Shown: one piece after another, positions 6,951-20,274 of the stretch
Numbering within the stretch: position 1 is the stretch's first letter
How the letters are laid out: each line of letters begins with the position of its first letter
Assembly: GCA_963921795.1 (NCBI GenBank)
Contig: OY997647.1
Location: 56,682,668-56,746,667, forward strand
Source: Nannobrachium achirus
Lineage: Eukaryota; Chordata; Actinopteri; Myctophiformes; Myctophidae
Reading direction: 5' to 3'
DNA length: 64,000 nt
Notes under the pieces: model-generated
Databases searched by the model: none
What the model saw: only the letters and a program-made list of their open reading frames with translations
Told to the model about the DNA's origin: nothing
Program-made: the position numbers and the translations under genes

Positions 6951-7052
6951 ATGCCGAGACGAGGCAAGCGGTCTACAGCAGCTGTGCAGAGCCATGCCAG
7001 AAGGGCTGCAGGTGTAGCTTCTGGAACTGGCTCAGTAGCACTGCCTGGCGAG
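6951..7052 (+). CDS. Coding exon 1 (initiator, basic N-terminus)
   Basis: Thirty-four codons beginning [10 protein letters not shown], rich in Arg, Ala and Ser. It could act as a nuclear-localisation tail (inference). An acceptor lies at 6935-6936 (alternative at 6946) and the donor gtaaat at 7053. It ends in phase 0. Confidence 0.8.
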
Positions 7053-19000: not shown

Positions 19001-20274
19001 ACGAGAACGGGACCCAAAGCGACTTGGCAGAAATTCTCGAAGTTGCGGAAGGAGCGCGGGTCATGGTCATTAGGAATCTGGATGTGGAAGACGGGATCGT
19101 GAACGGCACGTTTGGAACGATAGCCAACATTGTTTTAACCACTGCAAACGGATGTACGGTTGTGGACTTACTTGGCCTCAGATTGGATAGTCCCACAGCA
19201 GGTCAGAACTTCCGCAGGAAGATTCAAGGCCCAACAGATGATTTGGTGTACATTCAAAGGTCTGAGGAGAACCTGGCCAACAAATCACTGGTGCGACGGC
19301 AGTTCCCCCTGAAACTGGCTTTTGGGTGTACAACCCACAAAGTTCAAGGCATGACCGTCAGTTCTGCAGTGGTGTCTATGAAGATGATGCAAAACTCTGG
19401 AATAGCTTACGTTGCACTGAGCCGAACAACCTCGCTTCAAGGGCTCAGAATCAAACACTTTGATGAAAGCAAGATTTATGCCAACCCAAACATAAAAATG
19501 GCAATGCAGAACATGAATCGCGCTTCCTTCCAAGTGACGAGACCACTGATGCATTTTGTGGAACAGTGGTCCGGGGGTCCCACATTAACCATTGTCCATC
19601 ACAACACACAAGGACTGATGTCACACATTCACGACGTGAAGGCTCACCACGAGTTCAAACACGCTGATTTGTTGTTGATGACAGAAACTCATTTGTCTGG
19701 TAATTCCATTCCCACACAAGTTGAGCTGGACGGATACCAGTTGGTTACACATAACAGACATGGGTCTTATACCAGCGCCAACACTCAACACATTGCTACA
19801 AAAAAGGGAGGTGGAGTTGCAGTCTACTACAGGAGCAGTCTTCAAGCAGACCCTTGTAGGTTGGTTGAAAATGTCAGCGATGTGGAGTTTGCAGTTGTCA
19901 GAGTTGAGGCCCCAGTGAAAGCGCTCATAGCCACTGTCTACAGACCTCCAAAATACAAGGACAGCGACTTTTGTCTCAACCTTGGACGTCTCTTAGACTC
20001 TTTGGCCCTGATGGACTGCCAACCAATTGTTGTCTGTGGTGATTTCAATGAGGACCTCCTCAAGATGGGACACAAACCTGTTAAGGAGCTCTTTGAGTCC
20101 AAAGGCTACAGCCAGCTTATCGCCACTGCAACAACCCAAGAGCAGACCCTGATTGATCACATCTACATATCACAACCACAGACTTGCCTTCAGAAGGGTG
20201 TACTGCACACCTACTACAGTTACCATGATGCAGTATACTGTGTCTTGACTTCAGCAGCACCAATTATGGAGTGA
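6951..20274 (+). CDS. Helitron-like (Helentron/HLE2) transposase with N-terminal SGNH hydrolase, 15 coding exons
   Basis: Joining exons 6951-7052, 7197-7277, 7424-7480, 8118-8228, 8328-8597, 8702-8795, 9097-9164, 9302-9397, 9493-9612, 9989-10057, 10483-10617, 10758-10859, 11261-11362, 11736-11843 and 12445-20274 gives 9,345 nt, 3,114 codons plus TGA, with no frameshift. Every intron is GT/AG. All are phase 0 except the intron after 8795 (phase 1). The start ATG has A at -3. Order: basic N-terminus (1-117), SGNH hydrolase (118-293), proline-rich linker (294-505), two C76/OTU-like protease domains (about 524-1049), basic 21-residue repeats, Cys/His-rich region (about 1319-1388), HUH Rep (about 1739-2090), PIF1 helicase (about 2398-2851), EEP endonuclease (about 2884-3112). 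Rep and helicase would drive rolling-circle-type transposition in the nucleus. The hydrolase and protease roles are unknown. The large exon alone could be a separate ORF, but exact phase agreement at every junction argues for one transcript. Confidence 0.85.
7197..7277 (+). CDS. Coding exon 2
   Basis: Twenty-seven codons after a pyrimidine-rich acceptor (ttgttttgtag), ending in a Ser/Pro-rich stretch before gtatat. Phase 0 on both sides. No domain recognised. Confidence 0.75.
7424..7480 (+). CDS. Coding exon 3
   Basis: Nineteen codons between acceptor catcaaacag and donor gtatgc, phase 0 on both sides. It encodes a short hydrophilic segment beginning [10 protein letters not shown]. Small size makes it the least certain exon, but skipping it would also keep frame. 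Confidence 0.65.
7481..8117 (+). other. Intron 3 (637 bp)
   Basis: No repeat or further exon recognised. Short open stretches here lack good flanking splice sites in the required phase. Confidence 0.6.
8118..8228 (+). CDS. Coding exon 4
   Basis: Thirty-seven codons with acceptor tgtgtttttag and donor gtactt. The basic, Trp-containing segment ends in Lys-Lys-Lys directly before the hydrolase domain. Phase 0. Confidence 0.8.
8328..8597 (+). CDS. Coding exon 5: SGNH hydrolase blocks I-III
   Basis: Ninety codons. It opens with [10 protein letters not shown], the block I nucleophile motif (Ser125 of the spliced protein; GDS at 8343-8351). A Pro-Gly-Ala turn (residues 150-152, block II-like) follows, and then MATSNN (Asn180/181) where SGNH enzymes carry the block III Asn. 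SGNH hydrolases are esterases or lipases acting on acyl esters, or on acetyl groups of sugars. No signal peptide is present, so a nuclear or cytosolic protein is expected. The donor is gtaagt. Confidence 0.85.
8702..8795 (+). CDS. Coding exon 6: SGNH hydrolase core
   Basis: Thirty-one codons plus one base (phase 1 donor, G then gtgagt). It encodes [10 protein letters not shown] and a helix with [11 protein letters not shown], fitting the beta-strand and helix that precede the catalytic His in the fold. Confidence 0.8.
9097..9164 (+). CDS. Coding exon 7: SGNH hydrolase, carries catalytic Asp
   Basis: Completes the split codon (G+AT, Asp) and ends WCRDN before gtaagt. Asp260 at the exon end is the Asp of the DxxH motif finished by exon 8. 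Confidence 0.82.
9302..9397 (+). CDS. Coding exon 8: SGNH hydrolase, carries catalytic His
   Basis: Begins [10 protein letters not shown]. With the previous exon this makes DNIHLSD, the DxxH block V motif (Asp260 and His263), followed by a helix that closes the domain. The acceptor is gtctctcttag. Confidence 0.82.
9493..9612 (+). CDS. Coding exon 9: proline-rich linker
   Basis: Forty codons rich in Pro, Ser, Arg and Val with no domain. Acceptor gtatgtgtag, donor gtaagt, phase 0. The following intron (376 bp) holds nothing recognisable. Confidence 0.78.
9989..10057 (+). CDS. Coding exon 10: polyglutamine exon
   Basis: Twenty-three codons ending in eight consecutive Gln encoded by mixed CAG/CAA codons, just before donor gttaga. 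Acceptor tttgtcatttcag. Phase 0. The Gln run lies in the disordered linker. Confidence 0.72.
10483..10617 (+). CDS. Coding exon 11: linker
   Basis: Forty-five codons, Pro/Ser/Asn-rich, behind a long CT-rich polypyrimidine tract (about 10437-10477). Donor gtaaat, phase 0. Confidence 0.78.
10758..10859 (+). CDS. Coding exon 12: duplicated linker exon, copy 1
   Basis: Thirty-four codons starting [10 protein letters not shown] with a LPVRCD motif near the end. Same length and phase as exon 13. Confidence 0.8.
11261..11362 (+). CDS. Coding exon 13: duplicated linker exon, copy 2
   Basis: Thirty-four codons starting [10 protein letters not shown] and again ending with LPVRCD plus a few residues. 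Most differences from exon 12 are replacements in the middle, while the frame is kept. Confidence 0.8.
11736..11843 (+). CDS. Coding exon 14: linker
   Basis: Thirty-six codons, acidic/aromatic start (DECWDL) then Pro/Ser-rich. Acceptor gtttttgtgtatag, donor gtgagg, phase 0 into the terminal exon. Confidence 0.78.
11960..12270. repeat. Dispersed repeat in the last intron
   Basis: Related to 34200-34680. Shared elements are a cacgtcacacttntnccc stretch, an atatctcnccaa motif, a catgccanattntncacaca motif and tctagcgccacc-type motifs, in the same order. The homologous piece in the satellite region is in the same orientation, so this is an interspersed repeat that entered the intron independently. 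Confidence 0.7.
12445..20274 (+). CDS. Terminal exon: protease-like x2, Rep, PIF1 helicase, EEP endonuclease
   Basis: 2,609 codons plus TGA, starting [10 protein letters not shown] after acceptor ttttttgtcaacag. The open frame extends upstream to 12403, but those 14 codons are intron polypyrimidine tract. The Met at 12445 could also start a shorter protein from an internal promoter. The whole exon is open, with HVH at 16471-16479, two Rep tyrosines at 17173 and 17185, Walker A at 18220-18243, Walker B at about 18487-18504, and endonuclease motifs to 20232. Domain organisation fits animal Helentron/HLE2 transposases. An uninterrupted frame of this length implies recent activity or purifying selection. 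Confidence 0.93.
12500..13140 (+). other. Domain: C76/OTU-like cysteine protease, copy 1
   Basis: [10 protein letters not shown] (Cys554 and Cys556 of the spliced protein; 12589 and 12595) marks the nucleophile region. FDSHSR (12991-13008) gives an Asp-Ser-His element and SFRIDDG closes the domain. The Cys helix, central [12 protein letters not shown] segment and FDSHSR order resemble the peptidase C76 (herpesvirus tegument N-terminal) fold more than classical OTU. Such a domain might remove ubiquitin or a ubiquitin-like modifier; this is inference from the fold. Confidence 0.6.
13150..13400 (+). other. Ser/Thr/Pro linker with ~30-residue imperfect repeats
   Basis: About four repeats built around a TP-x-x-S/T core (TPGPST, TPGPST, TPVQST, TPRLSP) separate the two protease-like domains. 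This appears to be a flexible spacer. Confidence 0.6.
13460..14075 (+). other. Domain: C76/OTU-like cysteine protease, copy 2
   Basis: Repeats domain 1 in order: [20 protein letters not shown] (Cys864 and Cys866; 13519 and 13525), TPSLDKVL, a [14 protein letters not shown] strand region, and FDSHSR (13918-13935). Both copies keep the Cys and the Asp-x-His elements, so neither is an obvious pseudo-domain. Confidence 0.6.
14458..14700 (+). repeat. In-frame 63-bp tandem repeats encoding a basic 21-residue unit
   Basis: Four units begin near 14458, 14521, 14584 and 14647. The middle two are nearly identical at the DNA level, including the gacccagaattcagg core. Each encodes an RLNDPEF-plus-QRH-type segment rich in Arg, Gln and Lys, forming a charged helix. 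Repeat number may vary between alleles or copies. Confidence 0.88.
14884..15090 (+). other. Domain: Cys/His-rich region before Rep
   Basis: Paired cysteines (VCTVCHR, CCN, TCNTEC, CHCCHNN) suggest one or more zinc sites. An [17 protein letters not shown] stretch follows (about 15223-15276), typical of the N-terminal region of animal Helitron proteins. Confidence 0.65.
16141..17200 (+). other. Domain: HUH-type Rep endonuclease
   Basis: Helitron_like_N-type sequence with [10 protein letters not shown] and a [17 protein letters not shown] block; His1848-x-His1850 is the metal-binding HUH motif. The nucleophile region has two tyrosines (Tyr2082 and Tyr2086, in QYMMGYVAK), the two-Tyr arrangement expected for Helitron Rep, which nicks and joins single strands. 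An acidic/Gly/Lys linker (about 16720-16920) is inserted between the HUH and Tyr motifs. Confidence 0.88.
18121..19480 (+). other. Domain: PIF1-family SF1B helicase
   Basis: Walker A GGAGCGKS (Lys2437), motif Ia [10 protein letters not shown], Walker B IIDEISMV, motif [15 protein letters not shown], motif IV region [10 protein letters not shown], and motif VI ending [15 protein letters not shown] are all present in order. This is the strand-unwinding motor of Helitron transposases. Confidence 0.95.
19579..20265 (+). other. Domain: EEP (AP-like) endonuclease with altered SDH motif
   Basis: Exonuclease-endonuclease-phosphatase motifs are recognisable: [13 protein letters not shown] (catalytic Glu), [25 protein letters not shown] and LIDHIYIS. 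The C-terminal motif that normally reads Ser-Asp-His reads Ser-Tyr-His (20218-20226), with the Asp codon position being TAC. This endonuclease type distinguishes Helentron/HLE2 from canonical Helitrons. Confidence 0.88.

Follow-up and report, generated by a model that had tools for sequence, protein, structure and literature searches.

A predicted SGNH hydrolase cassette in a probable Helentron polyprotein of Nannobrachium achirus and its exchange between Helentron families

The Helentron at positions 6951-20274 of the window analysed here, a 64,000-nucleotide stretch of Nannobrachium achirus DNA (assembly GCA_963921795.1, contig OY997647.1, positions 56,682,668 to 56,746,667), raises the question of whether a transposon protein may carry, ahead of its replication and endonuclease domains, an SGNH hydrolase encoded by a series of short exons, and from where such a hydrolase would have come. 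The window holds a multi-copy Helentron, and its full product is most likely a polyprotein of 3,114 residues with an SGNH cassette that was inserted into it and passed between Helentron families, a reading held with reasonable but far from complete confidence. From the N-terminus the polyprotein would comprise a basic peptide, the texim-type SGNH domain, a Pro/Ser-rich linker, two deubiquitinases, Rep, helicase and endonuclease. We infer that this fusion is translated, probably beside a short SGNH-only isoform.

Recomputed splicing joins exons 1-14 and exon 15 (6951-20274, forward strand) in one frame of 3,114 codons and a stop, reproducing the sequence-only reading of this locus, which had described fourteen short exons with GT/AG borders, a 7.8-kb exon and a frame open throughout. 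All 14 introns run from GT to AG and each contains at least one in-frame stop when retained; the joints are in phase 0 throughout, that of exons 6 and 7 excepted, and with nearly all joints in phase 0 several isoforms are possible. An open frame by itself is weak evidence, because many GT/AG choices exist. The window protein can be aligned with nine predicted fish proteins over exons 1-11; the match is good for exons 1, 4-8 and 11 and over the exon 2/3 joint, and weak in most of exon 2, at the start of exon 9 and in exon 10. The genome searched comprises 1.66 Gb in 564 contigs (numbered with a C below), and in its copy J72 (C20:59.39M) exons 2-11 differ from the window at 22.6% of sites, with AG and GT borders intact and the frame kept and free of stops; the donor of exon 1 is also kept, and an exon resembling exons 12 and 13 is present with intact splice sites. 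The acceptor of exon 15, CAACAG directly followed by ATG, is preserved in J72 and in copy I72. For the short exons the codon-usage score is 0.104 in frame, against 0.041 and 0.067 in the other frames and about -0.09 in introns, and is indecisive when taken exon by exon. The chain is independently supported for exons 1-11 and the exon-15 acceptor, and exon 14 is predicted to be spliced to exon 15.

Exon 1 (6951..7052; all exons lie on the forward strand) supplies the start codon and a basic N-terminal peptide which, by splicing, protein alignment and start-peptide comparison, resembles the starts of both SGNH-carrying and SGNH-less Helentron proteins. A linker and then the entry to the SGNH domain are encoded by exons 2-4 (7197-7277, 7424-7480, 8118-8228), as delimited by splicing, alignment and copy comparison, and the hydrolase itself, residues 118-293, by exons 5-8 (8328-8597, 8702-8795, 9097-9164, 9302-9397). 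Exons 9-11 (9493-9612, 9989-10057, 10483-10617) form another linker, with a motif in exon 11 conserved in protein alignments, and are followed by the Pro/Ser-rich phase-0 linker exons 12-14 (10758-10859, 11261-11362, 11736-11843). The upstream exons are predicted to encode an SGNH hydrolase of the texim family, as the sequence-only reading had proposed for the N-terminus. The Pfam match located there is weak (17.4 bits, below the cut-off of 27), and the four SGNH catalytic blocks (S, G, N and D-x-x-H) are all present as S125, G151, N180, D260 and H263, residues which recur among relatives, with the window counted, in 27/28 (S), 29/29 (G), 29/29 (N), 28/29 (D) and 29/29 (H) rows. A predicted structure of the relative P0005 (P-numbers denote database proteins collected by protein searches), made for this relative and not for the spliced window protein, has a mean pLDDT of 73.6 and gave a best Foldseek E of 6.0e-7, the matches listed including many SGNH/GDSL hydrolases of the PDB; a PDB sequence search with the SGNH alignment gave no match.

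Exon 15 (12445..20274), which begins with ATG directly after its AG, encodes two VTD deubiquitinases, basic repeats, DUF6570, Rep (HUH), PIF1 helicase and EEP endonuclease. Pfam matches above cut-off comprise DUF6570, Helitron_like_N (Rep, E 2.1e-32), PIF1 (helicase, E 1.5e-21) and Exo_endo_phos (the C-terminal EEP/AP endonuclease, E 3e-11), which bears out the earlier identification of a Helentron by Rep, PIF1 and EEP. The helicase has GCGKS at residue 2434, and the HVHMM at residue 1848 is what we take to be the HUH motif of Helitron-type Rep. VTD1 (12580..13161, forward strand; QCTC at residues 553-556, DSH at 689-691) matches the crystallised zebrafish Helitron VTD (PDB 8ADD) with E 6.4e-29, Q-C-x-C and D-S-H being aligned, and VTD2 (13462..14088, forward strand; QCSC at residues 863-866, DSH at 998-1000) is recognised by its similarity to VTD1. 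The two repeats opening exon 15 are, by this alignment, predicted herpes-tegument-like (VTD) deubiquitinase domains, so that the cysteine protease often found in Helentrons takes here the form of a pair. A 63-bp in-frame repeat of basic units also lies in exon 15 (14461-14680), in a region whose length varies among copies.

The arrangement is not confined to the window. Searches with residues 1-505 found 12 fish proteins, and the full protein gave 12 matches, 10 of them fish proteins with SGNH; for the Rep-to-endonuclease part the best 120 of 352 matches were used, among which the named close relatives are nearly all fish, one Xenopus protein and amphioxus proteins being more distant. Altogether, of the 130 Rep-bearing proteins in the database set, 16 have SGNH fused to their N-terminus; these belong to 11 fish genera (the predicted gene models P0013-P0022, P0031, P0041, P0045, P0049, P0051 and P0062), and seven fused proteins stand among the best 120 of 352, a search made without SGNH words. 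In a Rep/helicase tree the SGNH-bearing proteins fall into two separate clades, that of the window, where SGNH occurs in 8 of 30 rows (window counted), and an OTU-type clade, where it occurs in 9/9 rows, all collected through SGNH words. The N-terminal peptide is shared beyond the fused proteins: SGNH-less zebrafish P0061 opens with MPRKGKRSQAQKLRWRKVD, like the fused P0062 (MPRKGKRSQAQKLRWTKLD), and SGNH-less Helentron proteins of zebrafish, carps and cichlids start with MPRKGKRSQAQK or nearly so, like the fused exon 1. Starts of this kind were counted, by a loose pattern with no chance level, in 23 SGNH-less and 11 SGNH proteins of 143. A Helentron-like first exon before the SGNH exons and a main exon after them is what an insertion into a single coding unit is expected to look like, and the SGNH exons look as though inserted into the Helentron's own coding region. 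P0025, the nearest relative (76% identical to the window protein over the Rep-to-EEP part), has an open reading frame that begins with a short stretch resembling exons 12/13 (E 1.2), which is suggestive only.

Within the N. achirus genome the SGNH exon gave 71 matches, 21 of them at 100%. The Rep domain gave 146 scored matches of 254 candidates, of which 125 rows were used, 21 being left out as standing at the list end, short, broken or at most 35% identical. Counting an SGNH exon as paired when it lies at most 30 kb upstream on the same strand, it precedes Rep in 12/12 rows of class A1 (that of the window), in 20/24 rows of A2 (that of J72; two rows are halves of one copy), in 31/41 rows of class B/46 and in the single row (1/1) of a 37%-identical lineage, but in 0/47 rows of class C (55-59% identity, one 53% row included). 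Eight of the 10 B/46 rows without an SGNH exon have a different frame length and may belong to another family. Conversely, 63/71 SGNH rows have a same-strand Rep no more than 30 kb downstream. The spacing is 7.4-8.3 kb for A1 rows, 8.4-10.2 kb for B/46 rows and 15-18 kb for A2 rows, apart from one at 24 kb. Copies A, E, B, F, G and H have an open main exon; in the C16 copy an insert of about 1.5 kb interrupts it. At C20:29.66M the 37%-identical Helentron combines a long open reading frame with diverged SGNH exons of its own (54%) upstream, which makes it a third lineage with SGNH in this genome. At C14:25.23-25.43M seven Rep copies from the 57-58% class are packed into 200 kb, and the 30 kb upstream of each holds no SGNH exon; this is an array of another Helentron family.

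Evidence of exchange comes from type B, to which the copy on contig C12 and copy H83 belong. In the C12 copy a tegument-like and an OTU protease precede Rep, the main exon of type B is synonymously saturated relative to that of the window (nonsynonymous divergence, dN, 0.73), and no DNA similarity between the C12 copy and the window was found after about 11.6 kb. Over the upstream block 6912-10213, type B is nonetheless about 87-97% identical to the window in the aligned parts, and over the exchanged tract (7343..9578, forward strand) the C12 copy differs at 14 positions in 2,236 bp (99.4% identical), 8 of the 14 being clustered at 9062-9121. Outside the tract this copy is 81-94% identical to the window, as against 97-100% to its type-B sibling H83. 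The type-B copies on C16 (minus 33 bases) and C21 are also nearly identical to the window over the tract, the similarity of the C21 copy breaking off at about 9463. Of the 21 copies with a 100% SGNH exon, 12 have window-type and 9 type-B flanks, the latter on C2, C7, C12, C16, C21, C40, C264 (twice) and C318, that is on 8 contigs; 11 of the 21 were judged on 501 downstream bases only, and C21 on the upstream side only. The same mosaic at many loci argues against assembly error. On this comparison of copies the SGNH module has been exchanged between two Helentron families whose main exons are synonymously saturated relative to each other. In type-B copies on C8, C24 and C16 the similarity to the window begins at 7055, inside intron 1; therefore exon 1 and the part upstream have been replaced in these copies, at a further intron breakpoint.

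An older exchange also seems to be needed, since the main exons of A1 and A2 are close and their texim exons distant: between the window and J72 the synonymous divergence (dS) is 0.75 in the texim exons (codon-bootstrap range 0.60-0.93) and 0.41 in the main exon (0.37-0.45), with 0/300 codon bootstraps reversed, while between A1 and B it is 0.25-0.26 in the texim exons and saturated in the main exon. In the simplest order, A1 would presumably have taken the SGNH block from the B lineage after its split from A2, and a 2.2-kb piece would later have been converted between A1 and some B copies. Across fish, the SGNH data reject the Rep/helicase topology in the approximately unbiased (AU) test (p 0.023 with 16 taxa, 0.015 with 14 taxa), and a single clade of VTD-type SGNHs is not rejected (p 0.136); the tree test is weak on its own.

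Whether the upstream exons are kept under selection is a separate matter. For exons 1-11 the dN/dS ratio to the window is 0.24 in J72, 0.32 in F83 (exon 1 left out) and 0.37 in H83. Exons 2-11 have no indels in F83 and none in H83, against 20 each in the introns compared, and the C12 copy has one indel of 6 against 5 in introns; in J72 the exon indels measure 3, 3 and 6, with two further ones of 1 that compensate each other and so keep the frame, against 33 intron indels, of which 4 are multiples of 3. Multiples of 3 are few among the intron indels of the compared copies (intron 10 was left out in every copy, and introns 6 and 9 in J72, for very different length). Only the indels and dN/dS suggest coding constraint, and the evidence for selection is best regarded as mixed. 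An oddity is that the dS of the texim exons relative to type-B copies (0.25-0.26) exceeds the intron divergence (about 0.10) over 6951-10617.

Several observations weigh against a translated polyprotein with a maintained hydrolase. Divergence is not lower in the texim exons than in their introns (respectively 0.114 and 0.096 in F83, 0.112 and 0.092 in H83, 0.226 and 0.221 in J72), and therefore high dS, rather than low dN, makes part of the ratios; the dN of F83 and H83 (0.086) is near the intron level, and in close copies dN/dS rises to 0.45 (C12) and 0.62 (copy E, with 3 changes in all). Exons 12 and 13 are a tandem duplication, 82% identical, whose 18 differences (10 at codon position 2) give no sign of purifying selection. 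The sequence-only reading had proposed a search for other copies with the same exon set; J72 has exons 2-11 and the exon-12/13-like exon, but a counterpart of exon 14 was sought there and not found, leaving A2 without it. All 16 fused proteins are gene predictions, 10 of them first found via search words of the SGNH half, and within the 30-row clade of the window SGNH is missing from the models of 22 rows, the nearest (P0025) included. In the C21 copy no main exon was found within the 20 kb fetched, and the lone SGNH copy at C9:34.58M has no Helitron in the DNA examined. Finally, an ATG stands directly after the exon-15 acceptor in A1, A2 and type B, where the main exon then reads MPRKKGR, which suits a separate protein, and the transcript structures of platyfish texim1/Y and texim2, as given in the accessible part of PMC4021074, point the same way.

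The main rival is accordingly that two proteins are made, exons 1-14 encoding a stand-alone Texim hydrolase and exon 15 being spliced by its AG-ATG to a non-coding leader, as the first coding exon of a separate deubiquitinase-Rep-helicase-endonuclease of 2,609 residues; we consider this possible but distinctly less likely than the fusion. Besides the ATG opening the main exon in all three classes and the platyfish genes with transcripts of their own (PMC4021074, in the part accessible), it can draw on a stop reached six codons into a read-through of exon 14 and on the existence of stand-alone texim models: P0010 (500 aa) and the fused P0019 (3,226 aa), both of Nerophis lumbriciformis, share 424 residues at 99.3% identity before they diverge. 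It has to contend, however, with the 16 fused models from 11 genera, with the exon-1-like peptide that opens SGNH-less Helentron proteins, and with exons 14 and 15 being phase-compatible both in the window and in copy E. Moreover, 7 of 11 hand-picked SGNH-less models start within the deubiquitinase and lack the catalytic motif of its first domain, as if an upstream exon were missing, although decayed copies could look alike. The fused models and the shared N-terminal peptide make a single coding unit likely, which is the part of the same-polyprotein proposal that stands, and both a short SGNH product and the polyprotein are probably made, the latter with a probability clearly above even but short of strong. 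That the exon chain is itself an artefact of GT/AG site choice is very improbable: many combinations are possible and exon 14 is without support from relatives or copies, but homologous proteins, preserved splice sites and frame-keeping indels speak for the chain, and chance was rejected for exons 1-11 and the exon-15 acceptor, whose splice sites and frames are kept in diverged copies. The published view of texim as a host fertility gene lately captured by a Helitron and merely travelling along is also improbable, if somewhat less so. Helitron-free texim-like genes have been reported in amphioxus, sea urchin and Oikopleura (PMC4021074, in the part accessible), and the C9:34.58M SGNH copy (47% identical) has no sense-strand Helitron match in the 18 kb downstream from its SGNH exon; against this, the 63/71 SGNH rows upstream of a same-strand Rep, the company of at least three Helentron lineages, the 37%-identical one at C20:29.66M included, and an N-terminal exon that looks Helentron-native disfavour host capture as the main explanation. 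The sequence-only reading had left the source open between a host and another element, and it is exchange with another Helentron family that the data favour.

Under the polyprotein reading, insertion would have placed the SGNH exons after the native N-terminal exon of the Helentron and ahead of its deubiquitinase exon, where they would persist as a kept, frame-preserving cassette that passes from one family to another when the exon-intron block common to them recombines or undergoes gene conversion. We lean, by a narrow measure, to the broader view that SGNH is an exchangeable N-terminal cassette of Helentron polyproteins, traded between long-diverged families, and that the "captured" texim genes are parts or isoforms of such polyproteins. 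That several copies have kept the frame, together with an intact catalytic set, suggests that the element makes use of the hydrolase. As an active esterase or acyl-hydrolase it might aid transposition or germ-line transmission, and by analogy we infer such a helper role in germ-line transposition; the deubiquitinases may shield element proteins from degradation. For texim and the CR1 esterases, membrane passage, transposition or transmission have been proposed (PMC4021074, in the part accessible), and Helitron VTDs are reported to cleave ubiquitin chains and were proposed to protect proteins needed for transposition (PMC9741609, likewise).

The texim-Helitron association, VTD Helitrons and the Helentron architecture are known already. 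According to the accessible parts of these sources, the texim SGNH family was tied to Helitrons in fish as separate transcripts: by reverse transcription PCR (RT-PCR) and rapid amplification of cDNA ends (RACE), platyfish texim1/Y has the Helitron in its last intron and texim2 ends 3 kb before one (PMC4021074). These texim-Helitrons (Tomaszkiewicz et al. 2014, PMC4021074) share with the window the SGNH family, many short exons (15 in teximYa/Yb) and a nearby Helitron coding region, either immediately downstream or within the last intron, and guppy texim/SGNH is also found with helitrons (PMC7643365); unlike here, they are described there as a captured gene, with no fusion, native N-terminal exon or family exchange described. 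The zebrafish Helitrons DrT1/DrT2 (PMC9741609; PDB 8ADD) likewise have VTD deubiquitinases (two in DrT1) and a C-terminal AP-type endonuclease, but the word SGNH is absent from that paper and in the window a hydrolase precedes the deubiquitinases. Helentrons/HLE2 (PMC4067079) also combine Rep, helicase and endonuclease in one protein, whereas the window element has an exon-split 5' half with SGNH. The esterases of CR1-like retrotransposons (PMC4021074) and the GDSL genes of rotifer Terminons (PMC6431247) are further cases of a mobile element with an SGNH/GDSL hydrolase, although in a different element class. As far as the open-licence PMC texts available extend, no description was found of an in-frame fusion, a shared N-terminal exon or an exchange of the SGNH block between Helentron families, and these appear to be new. 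They would turn a reported curiosity, a Helitron-captured gene, into the testable claim that the transposition protein includes a hydrolase, joined to deubiquitinases, which separate Helentron families within one genome swap among themselves. If true, vertebrate transposons would have taken an unusual evolutionary route, that of intron-rich modular proteins whose domains are swapped by gene conversion, different transposon families in one germ line would keep converging on the same hydrolase, and the reading of texim genes on fish sex chromosomes would change.

The element is embedded in repeats. Its termini, expected to show subterminal inverted repeats, a 3' palindrome and insertion at T-rich sites, were not reached, collinearity between the C1:14.69M copy and the window extending from base 1 to base 24253. 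Upstream of the gene, a tandem repeat of about 1.9 kb with long GT runs (1-3340) is common to the C1 and C5 copies and so probably belongs to the element or to a larger array. The C1 and C5 copies also share the direct repeats, each about 100-300 bp long, that lie 3' of the stop codon (20938-23114), and a long array of about 1.45-kb repeats with nested 438-bp units (26173-64000) also follows the C1:14.69M copy. The copies with a 100% SGNH exon are clustered on C1 (4 within 160 kb), C10 (3 within 142 kb) and C5 (2 within 108 kb), which suggests that Helentron and satellite form arrays together. In the type-B copy at C12:23.81M (L012, about 8180-10000) the gene is followed by 310-bp tandem repeats, each of which includes 154 bp that are 97-100% identical to the helicase coding sequence of the element itself, in the region of the nucleotide-binding loop.

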